Assembly (NCBI GenBank): GCA_938083195.1
Contig: CALKCK010000033.1
Location: 1 to 64,000 of the forward strand
DNA length: 64,000 nt
Reading direction: 5' to 3'
From: an uncultured Pirellulaceae bacterium
GTDB taxonomy: Bacteria; Planctomycetota; Planctomycetia; Pirellulales; Pirellulaceae
Part shown: piece after piece, positions 1,320 through 14,909 of the stretch
How positions within the stretch are numbered: position 1 is the first letter of the stretch
Layout: each line of letters opens with the position of its first letter
Position numbers and translations under genes: made by a program
The notes under the pieces: generated by a model
Seen by the model: the letters and a program-made list of their open reading frames with translations, nothing else
Told to the model about the DNA's origin: nothing
Databases searched by the model: none

Positions 1320-2351
1320 ATGAAAAAAAACAAAAGAGGTTTTACCCTTGTCGAACTGCTGGTTGTGATTGCGATTATCGGAATCTTAATTGGCATGCTG
1401 CTGCCTGCGGTTCAACAAGTGAGGGAAGCCGCCCGGCGCATTTCATGTGCTAACAACCTCAAGAATGTCATGCTCGCAATGCATAACTACGAAGGTGCAC
1501 ACAAACACTTCCCCATGGGTGCAGAAGCCCAACTAGGGAACTCGCTCCCCGAATCCAATCTGTTTATGAGTGCCTTCTCTTTGACGCTCCCTTTCATCGA
1601 ACAAGAAAACTTACAGAATTTGATCAACTTTGATTTACCTTGGGAACAGCAGCAAGCTGTGGTCGCGAGTACGCCTGTAAATTCATTTTTCTGTCCGTCG
1701 AATGTCGGAGAGGACGTAATCGTAGATCCTGAATTTGGAGCTTTTGCACAAGGATACGGACTTCCAATTGGCGACACTTACGGTGTCACCACCTACGTAC
1801 TTTCACGTGGCTCAAGCTACAAATGGTGCAACCAGCCATACACGCTCCCGGGGAAAGGAATGTTTGATCTTGGAATGAAAGTGAAGTTTAGCGACATCAC
1901 CGACGGATCTAGTAACACCATGGGGATTGGTGAAGGAGCCACCGGTAAAGCTTGGAAAATCAGCACTGCTCAGGGAAGTGAAGGGCCACCAGCGACTGAT
2001 GCCCAAGGGAACGAGGTTTGGGCCAAACAACATTGGCTAGTACCTCAGCCCGGCAGTACCTTTTATCAGTCCCAAGGCCTCTCACCGCGAACCAGTATTT
2101 TCGCTTCCACAGCGGATTACCTAAATAAGAATCCTGTAACTCAATCCATCATTGATGACAGTGGGTTTGCAGGAACTGCTGGCGGCACGGTTAATGACGG
2201 CGATGCAACAAGTAACTTCCGAAGCAATCACCCCGGCGGCTCAAACTTCGCTATGGGTGACGGATCGGTTCAGTTTCTTGCCAACCCGTCTATCGACGTC
2301 TACCGGGCTATCTCCACCATTCAGGGACGGGAAGTTTTTGAACTTGATTAA
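1320..2351 (+). CDS. DUF1559 pseudopilin-like protein
   Basis: A complete 343-residue member of the planctomycete DUF1559 family. Residues 1-30 form a prepilin-type signal (basic leader, Gly7, then [20 protein letters not shown]). The VREAARR...CANNLKN...HNYE block follows, and the C-terminal motif HPGGSNFAMGDGSVQFL marks the end of the family domain. Cys residues around 120 and 165 may form disulfides after export. A good ribosome-binding site (AGGAG) sits 7 nt before the ATG. The gene stands alone and ends in a strong hairpin. It is divergent from a paralogue whose first 50 residues are nearly the same but whose central domain differs. Export and processing by a type II/IV pilin-like machinery is inferred; the function is unknown. 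Confidence 0.95.
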   Translation: MKKNKRGFTLVELLVVIAIIGILIGMLLPAVQQVREAARRISCANNLKNVMLAMHNYEGAHKHFPMGAEAQLGNSLPESNLFMSAFSLTLPFIEQENLQNLINFDLPWEQQQAVVASTPVNSFFCPSNVGEDVIVDPEFGAFAQGYGLPIGDTYGVTTYVLSRGSSYKWCNQPYTLPGKGMFDLGMKVKFSDITDGSSNTMGIGEGATGKAWKISTAQGSEGPPATDAQGNEVWAKQHWLVPQPGSTFYQSQGLSPRTSIFASTADYLNKNPVTQSIIDDSGFAGTAGGTVNDGDATSNFRSNHPGGSNFAMGDGSVQFLANPSIDVYRAISTIQGREVFELD

Positions 2352-2558: not shown

Positions 2559-4244
2559 TTGAACGCGACGGTTCCTTCAGAAATTCAAGCGGATTTGGAT
2601 TTCGCACTTTCAAAACTTGAAAAAGGTGCACAAAACCTTCAGTCAATGCCGTTGCTACAGCGGCGACAGCTGATCCAATCCTGTGCGGCAAACATACCGG
2701 ATTTCGCTCAGCAATGGGTGGAGGTCACTTGTGCCGCAAAACAGATTTCCCCAACGCGCCCCGTAGCTTCTGAAGAAATTCTCACTGGACCAGCCTCCTT
2801 ACTTCGATACTTGCAATTGCTTTCCGGTTTATTTCGCAATGTCGAAAAGTCAGGCAAACCCCAACTCCCCGGCTCGCCCCGCTGCAATCTGACCGGTCGT
2901 ACCTGTGTCCCAATCCTGCCGGTAAAACGTCTATTTGACCCATTAATTTTCCGGGGTCTGTCTGCTGAAGTTTGGTTAAACGTCGACCATGATGATCAAG
3001 ATATTTTTGCCGAACTCCCTTCTGACCGAAATAACATTGGGAACGGAAAAATTGCTGCGGTCCTCGGAGCTGGGAACGTCAGTGCCATTCCGGCGACCGA
3101 CATGCTCTACAAGATCTTTCACGACGGAGAAGTCGTTTTATTAAAACTCAACCCCGTCAATGACTACCTTTACTCGACTTTTACTTCGATCTTCGCACCG
3201 TTAATTGAAAAACAATTACTTCAAATTTTACGCGGCGGGAACGAAATTGGAAAAGCGATTGTCAGTCACCCTAAAATCGACACGCTTCATGTCACCGGTT
3301 CCCATCATACGCACGATGCCATTATCTGGGGAGCGAACGCCGACGAACGAGCCGATCGCATTGCCAATAACAACCCACTTGTTAACAAACCAATTACGAG
3401 CGAACTTGGAAACGTCACCCCGTGGATTGTCGTACCGGGGAATTACTCAAATCGCCAACTCCAATCCCAAGCCGAACATATCGCTGCATCTATTGTCAAC
3501 AATGCATCGTTCAATTGTGTCGCTACAAAAATGATCGTGACTTGTAGCGATTGGCCGCAACGTTCTGATTTTCTCGACCGAATTGAAACGCTATTAAAAA
3601 ACATCCCTCCGCGACATGCCTATTACCCGGGAGCCCGGGAGCGATTTGAACGCGCTAATGCCGGCCGCGAAATTTCGAACTCATCTTCCGAACTTCCCTG
3701 GACATTAATTCAAAATACGACTCCAGAGTCTGCGGCTCACCTTTTTCAAGAAGAGTCATTTGTCTGCGTGTGTGCTGAAACAACGCTAGAGGGCAGTACT
3801 CCTGGTGAGTTTTTAGACTCCGCGGTCGAATTCGTAAACGACCAACTCTTTGGAACCTTGTGTGCAACGATCACCGCACCCAAATCATTTGAAAACCGGG
3901 AAGCATTGGCCTTAGAAAAGGCAATTGCCAAATTGCGTTACGGATCGGTCTGCGTTAATCAGTGGGCAGGGGTGGTCTACGGACTAATGACGCCACCGTG
4001 GGGAGGTCATCCCAGTTCTAGTCTAGAATCACCTCAAAGCGGGATGGGGCACGTCCACAATACTTTTTGTTTGAAAAACTTTGAGAAAACAGTGCTTCGC
4101 GGTCCACTCTGCAGCCACCCCAAACCGGTCTGGTTTCATTCTCACAAAACAGCCACTCAGGTTGGCTGGTCCTTATTAAAGCTTTACGAAAAACCAACAA
4201 TCACACGTTTGCCTTTACTTTTCTTTCACGCCCTGCGTGGCTGA
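2559..4244 (+). CDS. Aldehyde dehydrogenase family protein
   Basis: 561 residues, somewhat longer than the usual 480-500. The NAD-binding Rossmann part shows LGAGNVSAIPATDML near residue 175. The general base is probably Glu282 in TSELGNVTP, and the nucleophile is Cys320 in ASFNCVATKM, so the protein should be a catalytically competent NAD(P)-dependent aldehyde oxidiser or acyl-CoA-type reductase; the substrate cannot be read from sequence. The start is a TTG with AGGA seven bases upstream; no in-frame ATG is placed better. No signal peptide, so cytoplasmic. It is the first gene of a same-strand set with the beta-helix lipoprotein (68 nt downstream) and the diheme cytochrome, which suggests an oxidative pathway. 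The last ~60 residues extend past the catalytic domain and are unassigned. Confidence 0.88.
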   Translation: MNATVPSEIQADLDFALSKLEKGAQNLQSMPLLQRRQLIQSCAANIPDFAQQWVEVTCAAKQISPTRPVASEEILTGPASLLRYLQLLSGLFRNVEKSGKPQLPGSPRCNLTGRTCVPILPVKRLFDPLIFRGLSAEVWLNVDHDDQDIFAELPSDRNNIGNGKIAAVLGAGNVSAIPATDMLYKIFHDGEVVLLKLNPVNDYLYSTFTSIFAPLIEKQLLQILRGGNEIGKAIVSHPKIDTLHVTGSHHTHDAIIWGANADERADRIANNNPLVNKPITSELGNVTPWIVVPGNYSNRQLQSQAEHIAASIVNNASFNCVATKMIVTCSDWPQRSDFLDRIETLLKNIPPRHAYYPGARERFERANAGREISNSSSELPWTLIQNTTPESAAHLFQEESFVCVCAETTLEGSTPGEFLDSAVEFVNDQLFGTLCATITAPKSFENREALALEKAIAKLRYGSVCVNQWAGVVYGLMTPPWGGHPSSSLESPQSGMGHVHNTFCLKNFEKTVLRGPLCSHPKPVWFHSHKTATQVGWSLLKLYEKPTITRLPLLFFHALRG

Positions 4245-4311
4245 CAGATCCAGTAAAAAATCAAGTACGGCACCCAACAGCCGGTGCAAACATATGTCCA
4301 GGAAAAAGAAA

Positions 4312-5628
4312 ATGAAAAACCTATCAATTGCGATCACCTTAGTCATCACTCTGATTGTCAGCGGTTGTGAAAAATCTCCGTTACCTTCGACGACAGAATC
4401 TTCGACGACAGAACCAGTAAAAAATGTGACGACAGAAACTCCTAACACAGCGACGATTGTGATCACTCCGGGCGCGGAGGCGCAGAAAAAGGCCCAAGAA
4501 GCATTTCTGCTTGCCGAGCCGGGCGACATCATTGAATTCGCTGAGGGTAAATTTGAGTTTGACAGCCCACTCTCCTTGATCGACGTTGCAAATGTGACCA
4601 TTCGCGGAAAAGGAATGGAGCAGACAATTCTTAACTTCTCCAAATTCCAAGATGGCAAGGGCGGCGAAGGAATCAAAGTAAAAGCCGACCAGTTTACCAT
4701 CGAAGATTTGACGATCGAAGACACACCAGGCGACGCTATAAAACTTCAAGATTGTAATGGACTTACGATGCGACGCATTCGCACCTGGTGGACCAACGGG
4801 CCTTCCTCAGAAAACGGTGCCTACGGTTTATATCCGGTACTTTCGAACAACGTCCTCATTGAGGACTGTGTTGCTGAATGTGCTTCTGACGCAGGGATCT
4901 ACGTTGGGCAATCAAAACAGATCATTGTTCGCAATTGCATTACGGAAAAAAATGTCGCCGGAATTGAAATTGAAAATTGCATTGGTGCCGATGTCTACGA
5001 CAACGTCAGCAAAAATAATACGGGAGGTATTCTCGTCTTTTCGCTGCCCGGATTGACAATAAAAAACGGCGCCGACTGTCGCGTTTTCAATAATACAATC
5101 ACGGCTAACAACCATGAAAACTTTGCCAAAGAAGGAGCGATGGTCGCCACCGTTCCATCGGGAACCGGTTTGATGATTATGGCAAATGACCGTGTCGAGG
5201 CATTTGGAAATACATTCGATGGTAACGCCGGGGCAGGCTGCTTAATCGTTAGCTTTATTACTACACAGCGAAAATTCGATGACCCGCAGTACGACCCCTA
5301 CCCAGAAGCAATCGCCGTCAAAAACAACACCTTTAAAAACGGTGGCACGGATCCTCAGGGAGAACAATTTAAAATGTTCACCGACGCGACGGGCCAGAAC
5401 CTGCCAGACATTGTTTACGACGGCATTCTTGATCAAACCAAACTGGTAGATAAGAAATTACCAGCTGATCTGAGTGTTTCGATCATCGACAATGGCAAGG
5501 CAACTTTTGTCAATCTTGACCTTGGGAAGCTATTCGCTGGCAAACAACCTAACATGACAACCGACATCACAGAGTTCGCTCACCCGTTACCTCCAGTCAA
5601 AACGGTCACGATTGAAGGCGTTAAATAG
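4312..5628 (+). CDS. Parallel beta-helix repeat lipoprotein
   Basis: About 438 residues. The ATG at 4312 is chosen over an upstream in-frame GTG (4237, overlapping the dehydrogenase end) because AGGAAAAAG precedes it and it opens directly into a lipoprotein signal, MKNLSIAITLVITLIVSGC, with lipobox VSGC. After a Ser/Thr-rich linker the mature protein has many turns of a right-handed beta-helix: repeats such as VTIRGKGM, LTIEDTPGDAIKL, NVLIEDCVAE, IIVRNCITEKN and GADVYDNVSKNNTGGI, as in NosD/carbohydrate-binding folds. It resembles the beta-helix family TIGR03805, whose members recur next to the diheme family found immediately downstream. No catalytic residues can be assigned. Probably anchored in a membrane facing the periplasm. 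Confidence 0.87.
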   Translation: MKNLSIAITLVITLIVSGCEKSPLPSTTESSTTEPVKNVTTETPNTATIVITPGAEAQKKAQEAFLLAEPGDIIEFAEGKFEFDSPLSLIDVANVTIRGKGMEQTILNFSKFQDGKGGEGIKVKADQFTIEDLTIEDTPGDAIKLQDCNGLTMRRIRTWWTNGPSSENGAYGLYPVLSNNVLIEDCVAECASDAGIYVGQSKQIIVRNCITEKNVAGIEIENCIGADVYDNVSKNNTGGILVFSLPGLTIKNGADCRVFNNTITANNHENFAKEGAMVATVPSGTGLMIMANDRVEAFGNTFDGNAGAGCLIVSFITTQRKFDDPQYDPYPEAIAVKNNTFKNGGTDPQGEQFKMFTDATGQNLPDIVYDGILDQTKLVDKKLPADLSVSIIDNGKATFVNLDLGKLFAGKQPNMTTDITEFAHPLPPVKTVTIEGVK

Positions 5629-5682
5629 GGACTTCGCGAGTCTGGCCTTGAATTCGACGGCAACCGACTGATAATAATCCCT

Positions 5683-6843
5683 GTGCCTACCTTCTACGCA
5701 AAACGATTGAATCAAATCTCGGAATCCAAGTCGGTTCCGATCGCATTAGTACTACTATTGATAACAGTGCTGCTTTTTATGTTAGTCGGTTGCGAACCCT
5801 CAGTCTCTCCAGTCGGCGATTCATCCAATGGGGTTGAACAGGACGGGACGAGCCAACTTCCAAACAGTCGAATCAGTAAATACAAACCCAAGCTGTCAGA
5901 CTATGAGATCTTCCAAATTCCAATGGACGAACTCAAGCCCGCCAGCGAAGTTATTGAATACGATTTAAACACGCCCTTATTTAGTGATTACTCTCAAAAA
6001 CAGAGACTCATCAAATTACCCCCGGGCACGCAGATCAACTACAAACCGAGTGGTCCTCTCGACTTTCCTGTTGGAACCATTATTGCGAAGACGTTTTACT
6101 ACGCCAAAGACCTCACCGATTCATCGTCGTCTCGGCGTCTCGTTGAAACAAGAATAATGGAACACCGGACAGAGGGATGGGTCGGCATTCCCTATCTCTG
6201 GAACTCCGATCAAACAGATGCCGAGCTTGCCATCATCGGGGCAACCGTCGACGTTTCATGGATTCACAGCGATGGAACCCCCCGCTCAAACTCACATTTG
6301 GTGCCGAATCTAAACGACTGCAAACGCTGCCATACGGATACGGAAATGCATCCGCTCGGTCCAAAAGCCGCGAACTTGAATCGTGACCTTGCCCTCAGCG
6401 GCAGTCATGAAAATCAACTAGAACACTGGCGTTACGCCGGACTGATCGACGGCCTTCCCGAGTTGTCAGAAATCCCCAAGCTTGCGGTTTGGAATGACGA
6501 ATCTACTGGCACAGTCGATCATCGCGCCCGGGCTTATCTCGAAGTCAATTGTGCTCACTGCCACAATCCAATTGGACCGGCCAGAAACTCGGGGCTTCAC
6601 CTCAATATAGAAGAAACAAATCCGTATCACCTGGGAACATTCAAAATCCCCGTCGCTGCTGGAAAGGGTACCGGAGGCAGGTTGTATGGGATTGTGCCGG
6701 GCAAGCCAGATGAGTCAATTCTGGAATACCGAATGCAAACTACAAAATCGGGAGAGATCATGCCCGAATTTGGCAAATCTCTGGTTCATGATGAGGGACT
6801 CGCTTTAATTCGCACTTGGATCAAAGAGATGAAATCGGATTGA
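5683..6843 (+). CDS. Diheme c-type cytochrome lipoprotein (SO2930/HNE_0200-like)
   Basis: 386 residues from a GTG start. A lipoprotein signal runs to lipobox LVGC near residue 37. Two c-type heme sites are visible: CKRCH from Cys213 and CAHCH from Cys290. The NTPLFSDYSQKQRLIKLPPG segment near residue 100 and the terminal GEIMPEFGKSLVHDEG...IRTWI stretch match my memory of TIGR03806, described as a regular partner of the TIGR03805 beta-helix family. It lies 54 nt after the beta-helix gene on the same strand. Role inferred: periplasmic electron acceptor or oxidase subunit working with the beta-helix partner; the physiological substrate of such pairs is not established. Confidence 0.85.
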   Translation: MPTFYAKRLNQISESKSVPIALVLLLITVLLFMLVGCEPSVSPVGDSSNGVEQDGTSQLPNSRISKYKPKLSDYEIFQIPMDELKPASEVIEYDLNTPLFSDYSQKQRLIKLPPGTQINYKPSGPLDFPVGTIIAKTFYYAKDLTDSSSSRRLVETRIMEHRTEGWVGIPYLWNSDQTDAELAIIGATVDVSWIHSDGTPRSNSHLVPNLNDCKRCHTDTEMHPLGPKAANLNRDLALSGSHENQLEHWRYAGLIDGLPELSEIPKLAVWNDESTGTVDHRARAYLEVNCAHCHNPIGPARNSGLHLNIEETNPYHLGTFKIPVAAGKGTGGRLYGIVPGKPDESILEYRMQTTKSGEIMPEFGKSLVHDEGLALIRTWIKEMKSD

Positions 6844-6878
6844 TCGCTCACTCCAAAACAACTTGCAAGGAATCCGGT

Positions 6879-7859
6879 TTAGCCGACCCGACGCAACGTT
6901 TCCGAAGGCAGTTCACCGAACTGAGTCTTGTAGGATTGCGAGAAATCACCAAAGTGAAAAAATCCAAATTGACAAGCAACAGAAGTCACTGTCGTTTCTT
7001 CAGATCGACAGCGCTTCAGTTTGTGTCGTACTTGATGGAGCCGATGCCGTTTTAAGTAGTTCATCGGCGAGATACCAAGACATTTCTTAAACGCATACTG
7101 TAAAGTCCGCTCACTCACCTGAGCGGCCTCACACAGATCCACCATCCTTACGTGTTCTTCCGGTCGCTGTTTGGAGTAATCCTCGGCGACGCGAACCAGC
7201 GCCCTCGATTTCGCAAGCCCCTTCGGTTTCTCCGCAACTTCAATTTCGGGGTGTTCTTCCATCATCGAATGACGAATGGAATATGCGACCAACATTAACG
7301 CGCGATCACGCAATGCTTCTTGAATTTTCAGCCTTAGCTCAGGCCCTAAATCATGACGATTGAACTGATGAATAAATTCTGGCCAACTCGCCACCCAATA
7401 GCTCGAATCTAAATCGATCATCGCACTTTGCAGCGCCGAACTCTGAACGAGAGCCTCACCGAACAGAGTTTGATAGTAGGGCTCAAGCTGCTCAGGAGGA
7501 ACAAATATTGAACTGGAAGAAAACGAACCGTCATTGATGCAGCTATCGAAGTCAAAAGTTGGAGGCATAACAAAAACACGACGGGCGTCAATTTTCTCTC
7601 CAGCAAAATGCCCCCCGTGCGCTGTATCGAACAAGGTCGCGACGTACCGGCGAGCTGGCAGACGAGATCGAACCACAATCGACTGATTAACAAATAAACT
7701 CAGTAATTTGATTCCATCCAATTCAATCACAGTTTGAGAGCTGCGGAATTCCGTTCCCGTCAATTGCACCAACTCTAACGATGTACCAAACAACGACCCG
7801 TCCCAATCAGAAGGGTCCGTAATAATTTGTGTCATCGTTTGAATCTTCATGCCGCCCAT
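6879..7859 (-). CDS. AraC-family transcriptional regulator
   Basis: 326 residues. The C-terminal ~105 residues form the double helix-turn-helix of AraC/XylS regulators: VRMVDLCEAAQVSERTLQYAF, then PMNYLKRHRLHQVRHKL and VACQFGFFHFGDFSQSYKTQFGELPSETLR. The N-terminal ~215 residues resemble the sensory domain of EutR-like AraC proteins but are too divergent for a ligand call. It converges on the diheme cytochrome gene (35 bp between stops) and is divergent from homoserine dehydrogenase. By position it most plausibly regulates the dehydrogenase/beta-helix/cytochrome set, although that promoter lies 5 kb away. Confidence 0.92.
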   Translation of the reverse strand: MGGMKIQTMTQIITDPSDWDGSLFGTSLELVQLTGTEFRSSQTVIELDGIKLLSLFVNQSIVVRSRLPARRYVATLFDTAHGGHFAGEKIDARRVFVMPPTFDFDSCINDGSFSSSSIFVPPEQLEPYYQTLFGEALVQSSALQSAMIDLDSSYWVASWPEFIHQFNRHDLGPELRLKIQEALRDRALMLVAYSIRHSMMEEHPEIEVAEKPKGLAKSRALVRVAEDYSKQRPEEHVRMVDLCEAAQVSERTLQYAFKKCLGISPMNYLKRHRLHQVRHKLKRCRSEETTVTSVACQFGFFHFGDFSQSYKTQFGELPSETLRRVG

Positions 7860-11942: not shown

Positions 11943-14909
11943 TTATTTATTTAAGAAGATCTCACTCTGTACGACGTTTTTAATCAAATCGCGGACGCCA
12001 CCCTTCGTTTCATTTAGATCGATTACAATTCGATCGATTTCCCCTCGGTCGACCGGTTCCATCAATCTACCGCTGGAATAGCTCAATAATTTTTCGGTAA
12101 GGCAACGTGTCACTTCTTTTTCCCGTGTAAGCAGCATTTGCTTAAACTCGACAATATCCTTAACCGTTCGTCCATTCGCCATCGTCGCTGAGGCATCAAT
12201 TGTATCTTTCGACCTTGGATACTTATCTCGCCAACGACCAACTTGGTCAAAATTTTCAAAGGCAAATCCCATTGGATCAATTTTTCGATGACAACCATTG
12301 CAAGCCGCATGCTTGCGATGCAACAACAACTGTTCACGAATAGTCACCGCTCCCCGAGTATCCGTTGGGAGCGGTTCTACATCGGGCGGGGGAGGCGAGG
12401 GGGGTAAGCCAAGAACATTTTCCAATACCCAGACCCCGCGAACGACTGGCGAAGTATCTACTCCATTGGCAGTAGCAGTCATTACGCCGGGAAGCACAAA
12501 AATCCCCCCCAAACGCGGATCGTCAACTTCCATTTTTCGCAATTCACTTCCGCGGATATCCTCACGACGATAAATCCATTTCCCCAAAACGTCGTTCATG
12601 TAGGTGTATTTAGAATCAATAAATTGCTTGATGGGGTCGTTGTTAATTACCGCGTCAGAGAAATATCGGGTTACCTGCTCGATCATTAACTGCTCTACAT
12701 TCAAGTTTCGGTAAAACTGCTCCGAAGGGGGCATCTTCCCAAGCTTATCCAATCGCAACCACATCGATGAAAAGTTCCGCACAAATGATTTCGCCTTTTC
12801 ATCGTCCAGCATTCGGTCGACCTGTTGCGCCAATACCCGAGGGTCGTTCAACTGGTCTTTGCTCGCCAATTGAAAAAGGGTTTCATCGGGCATGGATGAC
12901 CAAAGAAAATAACTCAATCGAGAAGCAATTTCATAAGAACCAAGCGACCCCGAATCCTCGCTCCGGTAAATAAATTGAGGTGAACACAACATGGCAAGAT
13001 AACCATCCTGCAAAGCCCCAACCACTCCGTTCGCCTGCGACAACGCACCGCCGCCATTTTTTGATTTCTGACTATCAACCGAAAGAGGCGTTATTGGTAC
13101 GCCAGGGCCCGACCAACTAGCTCGAAAACGATTCGGAACCCCGAAAGCAAAATACTCTATACGAAGATCGTGCGCGCCTGATTCTAATTGAACTCGGCCG
13201 TTTCTAAGTGCTGCTCCATGTAACCCATCATGCTCGACCACTATTTTATTATTAATAAGAATCCGAGCACCATCGTCAGATGCCATTTCAAAAGAGTATT
13301 CACCATTCTCAGGAACCTTTATCTTCCCCTCACAAACGAGTCCAAAATAATCCTTCGATTGCGAGGCATTGAGATCGACGAGGCCACTTGAAAATACTCC
13401 CTCCGCGACTGGCTTTAGCGCATCGAATTCAGGCAGACTGCTCCAGCGACCTTCGTACACTCGATATCCCAAATCCTCAACCAGTCCACCTCGATTCCCC
13501 TTAATCGCCTTCAAAACTAGATTTACATAAGGAGCCATTTCCTCTTTTGATACTGGACGTCGGAAAGCACGTTCGGCAAAACGAAAAAGCAAATCACGGA
13601 CTTCATCTTCATCGCCTGATTCATTCCCATAAAGCATTTGATGGCTTTTCGGCGGCCAAGAATCGACCAAGGGCTCCAAAGTCAGACTATGAATCTTTAC
13701 CAACGGGCCCTGATAATTTTCCAGTAACACCTCTTCTAATCCTCTGATCCGTTTGCGACGTGCCTCATCAAATTGAGCCTTGTCGGAAAACTGTGCTTGC
13801 TTCGGCGACTCTATATATTGATTTTGCAAATACTTCTTTACCAATCGCTCCGTTTGTAATTCTCGAGACGTCGGACCATTTTGCCACGTCAACTGAGGTG
13901 CCCAGTCCCCATCAATCCACGACTCGCAAGAGAATTGGTGAATGCGGCCATCAGCGGGGATTTCCCAGTTGGTGATATGAATCTGATTGCGACCTTTCGC
14001 AAGTTCTAAGCTGACCAAAAAAGGTGAATCCTGTTGGGTTGGAATCAGCTCCCCCCACGGGTGATGCTGATTCTCCGCAGAAATTTCCACCGAAATTCGA
14101 TAACGAGCTGCAATCCCTACTCGATTTAATCCGTCAATCTTCAACGATGCACCCCGAAAAAGTGAATCAAACTTGACGTTTTGCTCACTAGCTACCCGCT
14201 CAAGCTCCCCCGCGCCTCGCTTGTAGAGTGGAGCAACAAAACGCCTGGTTTCAACTTTTGGTTTCATTTCCTGATGCGTAGCCGCTGCAATCGACTCATC
14301 CGCAGCACCATAGATCAGATTTAATAAAAAGTCCGACATCACCAACTTCTCTCCGATATTGGCGGAACCGCTCTCTGTTTCATCCGCAGGAAAAAACCGA
14401 ACTGGATCGTCGGCCGTGTGTTCGACCCGCCCGTTCCCGTTGTTATCGTAAAGCCGCGTATTAGCAATTCCGGGACGGTACATCAGACCATCGAGATAAA
14501 ATAAATCACGAAAGGTATTTCGTAATTCATGCCGGTTCAGCCTTCGCAAAATTGTTTGCCCTTCCGTACTGCGGCGGGCAGCATAGGCTGATTTAAGCTT
14601 TAAAGTCAGCCGCTCGATAAATTGCGAAGTTGCCTCGCGAGCGGGCTGAGGGCTATCGAGCGGTGGCATTTCCCCAAGATTCAACTGATCTAAAATCCCC
14701 TGCCAGGCAACAAGCGTCTCTATTTGCGAAAAATCGTTACCGAGATTATCGAATCTTTGGTCGTTTTCCTGACGCTCCGCGCCGTGGCATGCAAGGCAAT
14801 TCTGATTCAAGAATTCCCTCAATTCATCCGCGGATGCAGCGCATGAGATACCCCAAAACATCACCACCAAGATCGAAGCAATTAGGTGTCTCACAATCTC
14901 TAACTCCAA
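11943..14909 (-). CDS. DUF1592 planctomycete cytochrome protein with PA14 domain
   Basis: 988 residues with a signal peptide (about 1-27). The N-terminus has a c-type heme site CLACH (Cys38) and a DUF1587-type region (RRLNRHELRNTFRDL). A PA14 domain, a probable carbohydrate-binding module, spans about 490-608 (GEYSFEMASDDGARILINNK). It is followed by the DUF1592, DUF1588 and DUF1585 blocks (IASRLSYFLWSSMPDETLF; GVWVLENVLGLPPSPPPPDV; HRKHAACNGCHRKIDPMGFA, a second CxxCH). These multi-DUF proteins are exported and have no proven reaction; linkage to polysaccharide breakdown is inferred. Its start overlaps the end of the upstream DUF1552 gene by 10 nt, so the two are translationally coupled. Confidence 0.93.
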   Translation of the reverse strand: MELEIVRHLIASILVVMFWGISCAASADELREFLNQNCLACHGAERQENDQRFDNLGNDFSQIETLVAWQGILDQLNLGEMPPLDSPQPAREATSQFIERLTLKLKSAYAARRSTEGQTILRRLNRHELRNTFRDLFYLDGLMYRPGIANTRLYDNNGNGRVEHTADDPVRFFPADETESGSANIGEKLVMSDFLLNLIYGAADESIAAATHQEMKPKVETRRFVAPLYKRGAGELERVASEQNVKFDSLFRGASLKIDGLNRVGIAARYRISVEISAENQHHPWGELIPTQQDSPFLVSLELAKGRNQIHITNWEIPADGRIHQFSCESWIDGDWAPQLTWQNGPTSRELQTERLVKKYLQNQYIESPKQAQFSDKAQFDEARRKRIRGLEEVLLENYQGPLVKIHSLTLEPLVDSWPPKSHQMLYGNESGDEDEVRDLLFRFAERAFRRPVSKEEMAPYVNLVLKAIKGNRGGLVEDLGYRVYEGRWSSLPEFDALKPVAEGVFSSGLVDLNASQSKDYFGLVCEGKIKVPENGEYSFEMASDDGARILINNKIVVEHDGLHGAALRNGRVQLESGAHDLRIEYFAFGVPNRFRASWSGPGVPITPLSVDSQKSKNGGGALSQANGVVGALQDGYLAMLCSPQFIYRSEDSGSLGSYEIASRLSYFLWSSMPDETLFQLASKDQLNDPRVLAQQVDRMLDDEKAKSFVRNFSSMWLRLDKLGKMPPSEQFYRNLNVEQLMIEQVTRYFSDAVINNDPIKQFIDSKYTYMNDVLGKWIYRREDIRGSELRKMEVDDPRLGGIFVLPGVMTATANGVDTSPVVRGVWVLENVLGLPPSPPPPDVEPLPTDTRGAVTIREQLLLHRKHAACNGCHRKIDPMGFAFENFDQVGRWRDKYPRSKDTIDASATMANGRTVKDIVEFKQMLLTREKEVTRCLTEKLLSYSSGRLMEPVDRGEIDRIVIDLNETKGGVRDLIKNVVQSEIFLNK

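Follow-up and report, generated by a model that had tools for sequence, protein, structure and literature searches.

What does a right-handed beta-helix lipoprotein do beside a di-haem cytochrome lipoprotein, and why should an aldehyde dehydrogenase (ALDH) gene stand directly before the two? The question is raised by a locus near the start of a 64,000-nucleotide stretch of planctomycete DNA from an uncultured Pirellulaceae bacterium (assembly GCA_938083195.1, contig CALKCK010000033.1, positions 1 to 64,000 of the forward strand), the whole of which we call the window. The beta-helix protein belongs to TIGR03805 (here HELIX) and the cytochrome to TIGR03806, the SO2930 family (here CYT). The gene content, DUF1559 and planctomycete cytochrome families among it, likewise points to Planctomycetota. 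An earlier sequence-only reading of this DNA described the two families as a recurrent two-gene lipoprotein pair, to our knowledge without known function. The pair is common, with at least 584 relatives of CYT, and no assigned function was found in the sources searched. We find that the gene group is real and recurrent and that a functional link is supported in this planctomycete lineage, the reaction itself being unproven. The parts tend to be passed on together and are probably members of an oxidation pathway not yet characterised.

In the window, four plus-strand genes follow one another in the order DUF1559, ALDH, HELIX, CYT, and an AraC-family regulator on the minus strand then converges on them. 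The ALDH (2559-4244, plus strand) is a divergent protein of 561 amino acids with a TTG start. HELIX (4294-5628, plus strand) scores 379 bits against a cut-off of 141.5 and is the sole TIGR03805 match of its own genome; CYT (5683-6843, plus strand), which bears two CxxCH haem sites, scores 386 bits against 313.3 and is the only one of that genome's four TIGR03806 matches above the cut-off. The regulator (6879-7859, minus strand) matches PF12833 (HTH_18) at 74.2 bits against 33.6. Both family assignments of the sequence-only reading, its two haem sites and its convergent AraC regulator are borne out, and its gaps of about 68 and 54 nucleotides (nt) compare with 67 nt before HELIX, counted from ATG 4312, and 54 nt between HELIX and CYT. 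The HELIX open reading frame spans 4237-5628; the preferred start, ATG 4294, leaves 49 nt after the ALDH, and GTG 4237 would create an 8-nt overlap. CYT and the regulator lie 35 nt apart.

That reading overlooked one member of the module, the upstream gene for a DUF1559/N-methyl pseudopilin-like protein (1320-2351, plus strand; PF07596 at 175 bits, PF07963). Between this gene and the ALDH lies a strong hairpin (2408-2455, no strand assigned; the fold of 2395-2475 reaches -32.2 kcal/mol, z -7.80, equalled by 0 of 200 shuffles), which is likely a terminator. The ALDH would thus probably begin its own transcript, with DUF1559 probably transcribed apart here. No strong hairpin appears by the same comparison of folds with shuffles in the two gaps between ALDH, HELIX and CYT (z -0.72 and -0.92). 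The hairpin is not listed by a simple terminator scan (12 terminator-like sites vs 8.2), and a simple promoter scan performed at chance (7 found, 7.7 expected). HELIX and CYT carry lipobox-like VSGC and LVGC at their N-termini; counting all planctomycete HELIX/CYT rows, 12 of 38 show this strict pattern, but the HELIX cysteine is conserved in 45 of the 46 rows aligned.

Do these genes belong together? Among 60 relatives including the window's own genome (ALDH called at E below 1e-40, CYT above cut-off), 16 hold both CYT and ALDH, none CYT only, 2 ALDH only and 42 neither: the ALDH is present in 16/16 relatives with CYT and in 2/44 without it (Fisher p 1e-12). Across 392 genomes of the phylum, with at most three candidates per genome scored in the HELIX scan, HELIX is above cut-off in 19, a strong ALDH is found in 35 and both in 13 (p 4e-11), one of the 13 (G089) carrying a HELIX fused to a MauG-like enzyme; both p-values ignore kinship. 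The ALDH adjoins HELIX/CYT in 19 genomes, nine in the window's genus and ten in family f21, where HELIX and CYT are fused. In f21 the fused protein comes directly after the ALDH in 10 of 11 ALDH loci, the eleventh genome, G402, having the pair elsewhere, and G031 has a fused HELIX-CYT at a distance of about 4 kb from its ALDH. Within the window's genus (28 genomes), ALDH and HELIX/CYT are both present in 9 and both missing from 19. In 16 of these 19 adjoining loci a DUF1559 gene stands upstream of the ALDH on the same strand. With the DUF1559 protein upstream of an f21 ALDH (L080) as query, the window copy reaches 291 bits, against 115 for the next DUF1559 match of the window genome; the window gene is therefore no random member of a large family, it is orthologous.

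The ALDH phylogeny tells the same story. In a tree of 51 rows, 28 form one clade (support 100/99), and 27 of these come from genomes that carry the HELIX/CYT pair, G034 alone having no CYT above cut-off. Among the 18 planctomycete rows outside the clade, HELIX exceeds the cut-off in G089 only, in its MauG-fused form, and G124 has a partial match below the cut-off. Not in the tree are the strong ALDHs of G043, G096, G184, G272, G340 and G359, which the gene caller overlooked or truncated or which were not included. We consider it quite probable that these genes form a functionally linked module in this planctomycete lineage. The regulator is a more local part: an AraC gene is present in all nine genus carriers (the window and L043-L050) and, among the planctomycete loci compared, its homologue is confined to that genus. 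Of the recurrent ALDH and AraC partners that the sequence-only reading had suggested looking for, the ALDH is found in 19 planctomycete genomes and AraC, among the planctomycete loci compared, only in the window's genus. AraC as a part of the module everywhere is rejected, since another gene family occupies its position in 9 of 10 adjacent f21 loci; a single member of that family was scanned and proved to be a GGDEF protein. No AraC equivalog family reached its cut-off with the window protein. Its score against the EutR model is 87.5 bits, below the cut-off of 319.

The ALDH itself has its catalytic residues intact. It matches PF00171 at 46.7 bits (cut-off 23), and Asn173, Lys196, Glu282 and Cys320, the last two already picked out in the sequence-only reading, are invariant across 51/51 aligned family rows; its best named NCBIfam family gives 22.3 bits against a cut-off of 615. 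The neighbours of its wider family hint at a substrate class. Outside the pair-linked clade, a GMC oxidoreductase gene adjoins the ALDH in relatives L093, L095 and L096, the cluster also encoding isocitrate lyase and malate synthase; in L099, genes for acyl-CoA ligase and acyl-CoA dehydrogenase are nearby. Neighbour data for 5 of the 18 plasmid records carrying the ALDH add GMC and acyl-CoA ligase genes in Sulfitobacter and Polaromonas (in the latter also a desaturase gene) and acyl-CoA ligase without GMC in Klebsiella and Streptomyces; neither is seen beside the Tsukamurella plasmid ALDH. The f76 loci and many other relatives lack any such context. The GMC, acyl-CoA ligase and glyoxylate-shunt neighbours fit aliphatic alcohol or aldehyde catabolism, to which the wider family would point, without proof. 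Inside the 28-row clade, GMC lies directly upstream of the ALDH in G049; a close GMC relative occurs in only 2 of 16 carriers, and the window's own genome has a GMC relative elsewhere only, at 30% identity. HELIX-CYT as a plain substitute for GMC is weakened as an idea, given that G049 and G024 hold both a close GMC and the pair.

Two further observations concern ALDH relatives. The large subunit of an ethanolamine ammonia lyase (EutB; L213:4012-5427) is encoded two genes from a GMC-ALDH pair, and at L097:7215-8771, in another class of the phylum, the end of a gene for a protein with seven CxxCH overlaps the start of a window-type ALDH open reading frame. No relatives of the ALDH or of CYT were found on viral contigs.

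What kind of cytochrome is CYT? Its CxxCH motifs lie at residues 213-217 and 290-294, and Lys136, Glu155 and Met360 are invariant in 70/70 rows of an alignment that took in 61 of 80 loci from a wider scan (two, L189 and L200, were excluded for in-frame stops and 17 as redundant, short or incomplete). An AlphaFold2 model (pLDDT 85.4, pTM 0.79) has a beta-rich first haem domain, and we propose, as a new point, that this domain (residues ~85-224; 5935-6354, plus strand), with its Lys136 and Glu155, weakly resembles cytochrome P460. Foldseek gives no hit at E<=0.001, and 8 of the top 23 hits are P460/c'-beta proteins (best E 0.055). The P460 model PF16694 matches 49 of 70 CYT family members at E<=10 (best 1.5e-5), ordinary cytochrome c models matching more members; the window CYT reaches 12 bits (E 0.29), below the gathering cut-off of 27 bits. 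Compared by hhalign with 13 planctomycete P460 proteins, CYT aligns at probability 92.7 and E 4.2e-7 over residues 67-137 only; a control against HELIX gives 18.6% and E 0.0013, on signal peptides, and the CYT domain alone gives a global E of 4e-5 (probability 43) and a local E of 0.0015 (probability 17). At E<=10, a P460 profile picks up 60 of 70 CYT domains (best E 0.016) and 18 of 350 shuffled sequences.

In the profile alignment Lys136 pairs with Lys138, and Glu155 with Glu163, of the P460 protein L229; counted on the printed alignment, these correspond to Lys70 and Glu96 of Nitrosomonas europaea P460, which Table 2 of PMC11928373 gives as the haem cross-linking lysine and the distal carboxylate. 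The likeness extends to a beta-rich haem domain along which, as in P460, a GT..xK motif is followed by Glu, Trp and CxxCH; the difference is that identity in the alignments is 9-13% and that CYT adds a class-I-like cytochrome c domain and an association with a beta-helix. P460 genes and the module hardly overlap in genus g1, where the former occur in 14 of 28 genomes, the latter in 9 and both only in G024, a nearly exclusive pattern that is uncorrected for kinship.

A second clue to CYT comes from protein fusions. A related di-haem domain is fused to GSDH (PF07995), a pyrroloquinoline quinone (PQQ)-type dehydrogenase, in 4/4 scanned proteins (L022, L024, L032 and a copy in the window's own genome), so that the CYT-type domain is best read as the electron acceptor of a periplasmic dehydrogenase. 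Among 15 relatives of this type, the four scanned for GSDH included, the equivalent of Lys136 is kept in 13 and that of Glu155 in 15; the P460 likeness, if real, would therefore be a trait of the whole family, and these residues are rejected as a HELIX-specific feature. What differs is the partner, GSDH instead of a beta-helix, and the conservation of Lys321, Glu362 and His369, which are invariant or nearly so in HELIX-partnered CYT and not in the GSDH type. From this alignment pattern, the three may mark the partner interface.

HELIX has conserved residues of its own. Tyr177, Asp199, Tyr203, Glu225 and Glu227 are kept in 46/46 pair-type rows, of an alignment that used 39 of the 80 wider-scan loci, and in 4/4 outgroup beta-helices, and Trp166 in the pair type only. 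Elsewhere, TIGR03805 proteins are linked to MauG-like enzymes. In G089 the TIGR03805 domain shares one protein with a di-haem enzyme domain resembling MauG/MbnH (216 and 203 bits, both under the respective cut-offs), in G314 a MauG-like enzyme 57.8% identical to this enzyme domain directly precedes HELIX, and in Ruegeria a cytochrome c peroxidase (CCP; 40.6%) lies two genes before a HELIX relative. The window CYT, by contrast, is not MauG-like. That a beta-helix of this kind is found with two different di-haem partners argues for redox work, though not in every member: in Hymenobacter, an outgroup TIGR03805 gene lies among glycoside hydrolase genes, with no haem gene in the listed neighbours. 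Trp166 as a MauG-type modification site is weakened as a candidate, for all four outgroup beta-helices have a gap there and three of them have MauG/CCP-type genes fused or nearby. Against the NosD family (TIGR04247) HELIX scores 37.9 bits, below the cut-off of 300. A PF01804 penicillin acylase-family gene adjoins the fused HELIX in two distantly related planctomycetes, G031 (L038:9431-11635) and G089 (L209:4139-6343).

How might these parts work together? We tentatively favour a module of oxidative catabolism, made of DUF1559, ALDH, HELIX and CYT, with AraC in this genus, that would take an alcohol to an acid. HELIX, as an exported beta-helix, would bind the substrate in the periplasm or at the outer surface through the site formed by Tyr177, Asp199, Tyr203, Glu225 and Glu227. 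CYT would take up the electrons. Its P460-like domain would house the first haem, and a class-I-like cytochrome c domain with the second haem (His294, probably Met360) would hand the electrons on to the respiratory chain; this direction of flow would fit the GSDH-type fusions, in which electrons would be removed from a periplasmic dehydrogenase. The substrate would likely be an alcohol or similar compound and the product an aldehyde, which the ALDH, presumably cytoplasmic, would oxidise as a shared intermediate. AraC would turn the genes on, and DUF1559 would also take part. This is close to the sequence-only reading, which had proposed periplasmic oxidation finished by the ALDH. The families, the recurrence of the ALDH in planctomycetes, the co-occurrence and the GSDH fusions speak for that proposal; as a general rule for the pair it is not supported, and its substrate and reaction stay conjectural.

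Several observations weigh against this picture. The genus carriers are mostly one tight clade, and their counts are not independent events. Homoserine dehydrogenase is 96-97% identical to the window's in the five other carriers compared, so that most carriers seem to fall in a single clade, from which G024 stands off (its locus, L043, keeps the five genes without the homoserine dehydrogenase flank), and the nine may stem from about two events. Six of the 19 phylum genomes with HELIX have no strong ALDH (G103, G130, G166, G225, G314, G397): CYT stands beside or fused to HELIX in G103, G130, G166 and G397 (in the last as a labelled fused two-haem protein), the HELIX neighbour in G314 is MauG-like, and no CYT was seen in the stretch around HELIX in G225. 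ALDH and CYT are on separate contigs in G037, G040, G049, G054, G056 and G058. Beyond planctomycetes, the best 80 of at least 584 CYT relatives were kept in the wider scan, mostly from Proteobacteria, and most of these loci have HELIX directly before CYT; a strong match to the window ALDH is absent from 44/44 searched genomes of this set with the pair (five weak matches, E 1e-4 to 9e-4), so the pair works without that ALDH. Together with the phylum exceptions, at least four genomes with HELIX and CYT and without ALDH, this rejects the ALDH as a universal or general partner of the pair. ALDH genes of any kind number 14 within 5 kb of the pair and 6 beyond, a mild enrichment from few lineages. 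Finally, no redox cofactor is recognised in HELIX. Among solved structures its fold comes closest to epimerases and lyases of polysaccharides, and this speaks more for a sugar-acid polymer than for an alcohol.

The near/far count behind the ALDH figure covers 79 loci of the scan plus a Novosphingobium plasmid, 80 in total (722 kb within 5 kb vs 558 kb beyond, ALDH-domain proteins over 900 amino acids omitted); kinship is uncorrected, so the numbers are indicative only. TonB receptors (32 vs 4) and AraC genes (18 vs 4) are concentrated near the pair, GMC (0 vs 1) and acyl-CoA ligase (1 vs 7) are not. Among the ALDHs, 8 of 10 Dyella/Rhodanobacter loci have the order HELIX-CYT-TonB-ALDH, one of them with CYT in the genome scan but not in the gene calls; these ALDHs are ~21-25% identical to the window's and belong to another subfamily. 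The planctomycete G056 has an additional ALDH gene just before HELIX-CYT (L039), whose product shares 35% identity with an ALDH of Novosphingobium. Taken together, the Dyella/Rhodanobacter and G056 loci imply that the pair has met ALDHs of different subfamilies in several lineages.

Could the substrate be a carbohydrate instead? HELIX would then bind carbohydrate or process polyuronate at the surface, CYT would oxidise the sugar-like product, as in the GSDH-cytochrome fusions, and the ALDH would take a sugar-derived aldehyde. We consider this unlikely, if well worth keeping in mind. It draws on the model of a fused f21 HELIX-CYT (pLDDT 87.8, pTM 0.86), whose beta-helix finds mannuronan C5-epimerases, PL6 alginate lyases and RbmB as best Foldseek hits, a similarity to the epimerases and PL6 lyases that is of fold only. 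It is also in keeping with the di-haem domain fused to GSDH, with TonB receptors near 27 of 80 loci, with the glycoside hydrolase surroundings of the Hymenobacter gene and with the only paper found naming TIGR03805, which concerns a Burkholderia exopolysaccharide cluster (PMC3584217). However, where the gene neighbours of the wider ALDH family are informative, they encode GMC, acyl-CoA ligase and glyoxylate-shunt enzymes, and no glycoside hydrolase or polysaccharide lyase is among the top 25 families of each neighbour tally (which omits 20 named loci that are redundant, short or incomplete, TonB hits, proteins below 140 or above 1000 amino acids and genes off the low end).

Alternatively, the P460-like haem may itself be catalytic or gas-binding, in small nitrogen or peroxide chemistry, with HELIX as a scaffold and the pair as a stress or detoxification system. 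The alignment of Lys136 and Glu155, invariant in 70/70 rows, with Lys70 and Glu96 of P460, whose roles we take from Table 2 of PMC11928373, and the HELIX relatives fused to or near MauG-like di-haem enzymes lend themselves to such chemistry. Yet sequence similarity is very low, the GSDH-fusion type keeps the Lys and Glu even though PQQ is the likely catalyst there, and no nitrogen-cycle genes were recognised among the scanned neighbours, which are part of all neighbours; we find this idea rather improbable. More speculative still is a combination of these clues, in which TIGR03805 beta-helices would be a class of cofactor-poor oxidoreductases: the di-haem partner, a P460-like/class-I-like cytochrome here and a MauG-like one in other lineages, would oxidise or draw electrons through Tyr177/Tyr203, and this protein-derived redox site would oxidise an alcohol-type substrate, the planctomycete ALDH completing the pathway. 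We regard this as a long shot, which if true would place P460-type haems far outside nitrogen metabolism. Very improbable, too, is that the pair chiefly discharges electrons at the outer membrane to acceptors outside the cell, with the ALDH merely giving reducing power: passages on Shewanella oneidensis list SO_2930/SO_2931 as outer-membrane/extracellular c-type cytochromes and count SO_2931 as one of five outer-membrane cytochromes (PMC4837345, PMC12175506), and SO_2931 was included in a multi-gene outer-membrane cytochrome deletion (PMC5829830), but there are only two haems, the GSDH fusions indicate electron intake and the two genes are not tested singly in these passages.

Returning to the proposed alcohol-oxidising module, a close described analogue is the LaoABCR system for long-chain alcohols in Pseudomonas aeruginosa, in which, according to PMC7318663 and PMC10045523, an alcohol-oxidising step goes with an ALDH and a regulator. 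The likeness would lie in this combination; the window cluster differs in having no GMC alcohol dehydrogenase and an AraC instead of a TetR regulator. No strong match to the window ALDH was found in six searched Pseudomonas genomes. As to the TIGR03805/TIGR03806 pair known from HNE_0200 and the SO2930 family, the window shares adjacent genes above both curated cut-offs, with HELIX before CYT; it adds the ALDH, the DUF1559 pseudopilin and, in this genus, AraC, while the named loci are enriched for TonB and AraC. In the passages of PMC4837345, PMC5955497, PMC12175506 and PMC5829830, SO_2930/SO_2931 are mentioned only in passing, and within the incomplete coverage of the open-licence literature no paper treats the function of the pair by its title or the start of its abstract. 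The planctomycete module ties the pair genetically to an ALDH with intact catalytic residues, which gives a substrate class that can be screened, and a P460-like reading of CYT opens a direct spectroscopic test. If true, haem chemistry known from hydroxylamine oxidation would extend to carbon catabolism.

Two minor observations complete the description of the loci. In G402 (L210:8993-12320), two CYT-like proteins are encoded in a row after HELIX, and the second has three CxxCH motifs. In the window, 11943-14909 encodes a large planctomycete PSD/PSCyt protein with a PA14 domain; of the nine genus carriers, eight conserve it downstream of the module, G024 being the exception.

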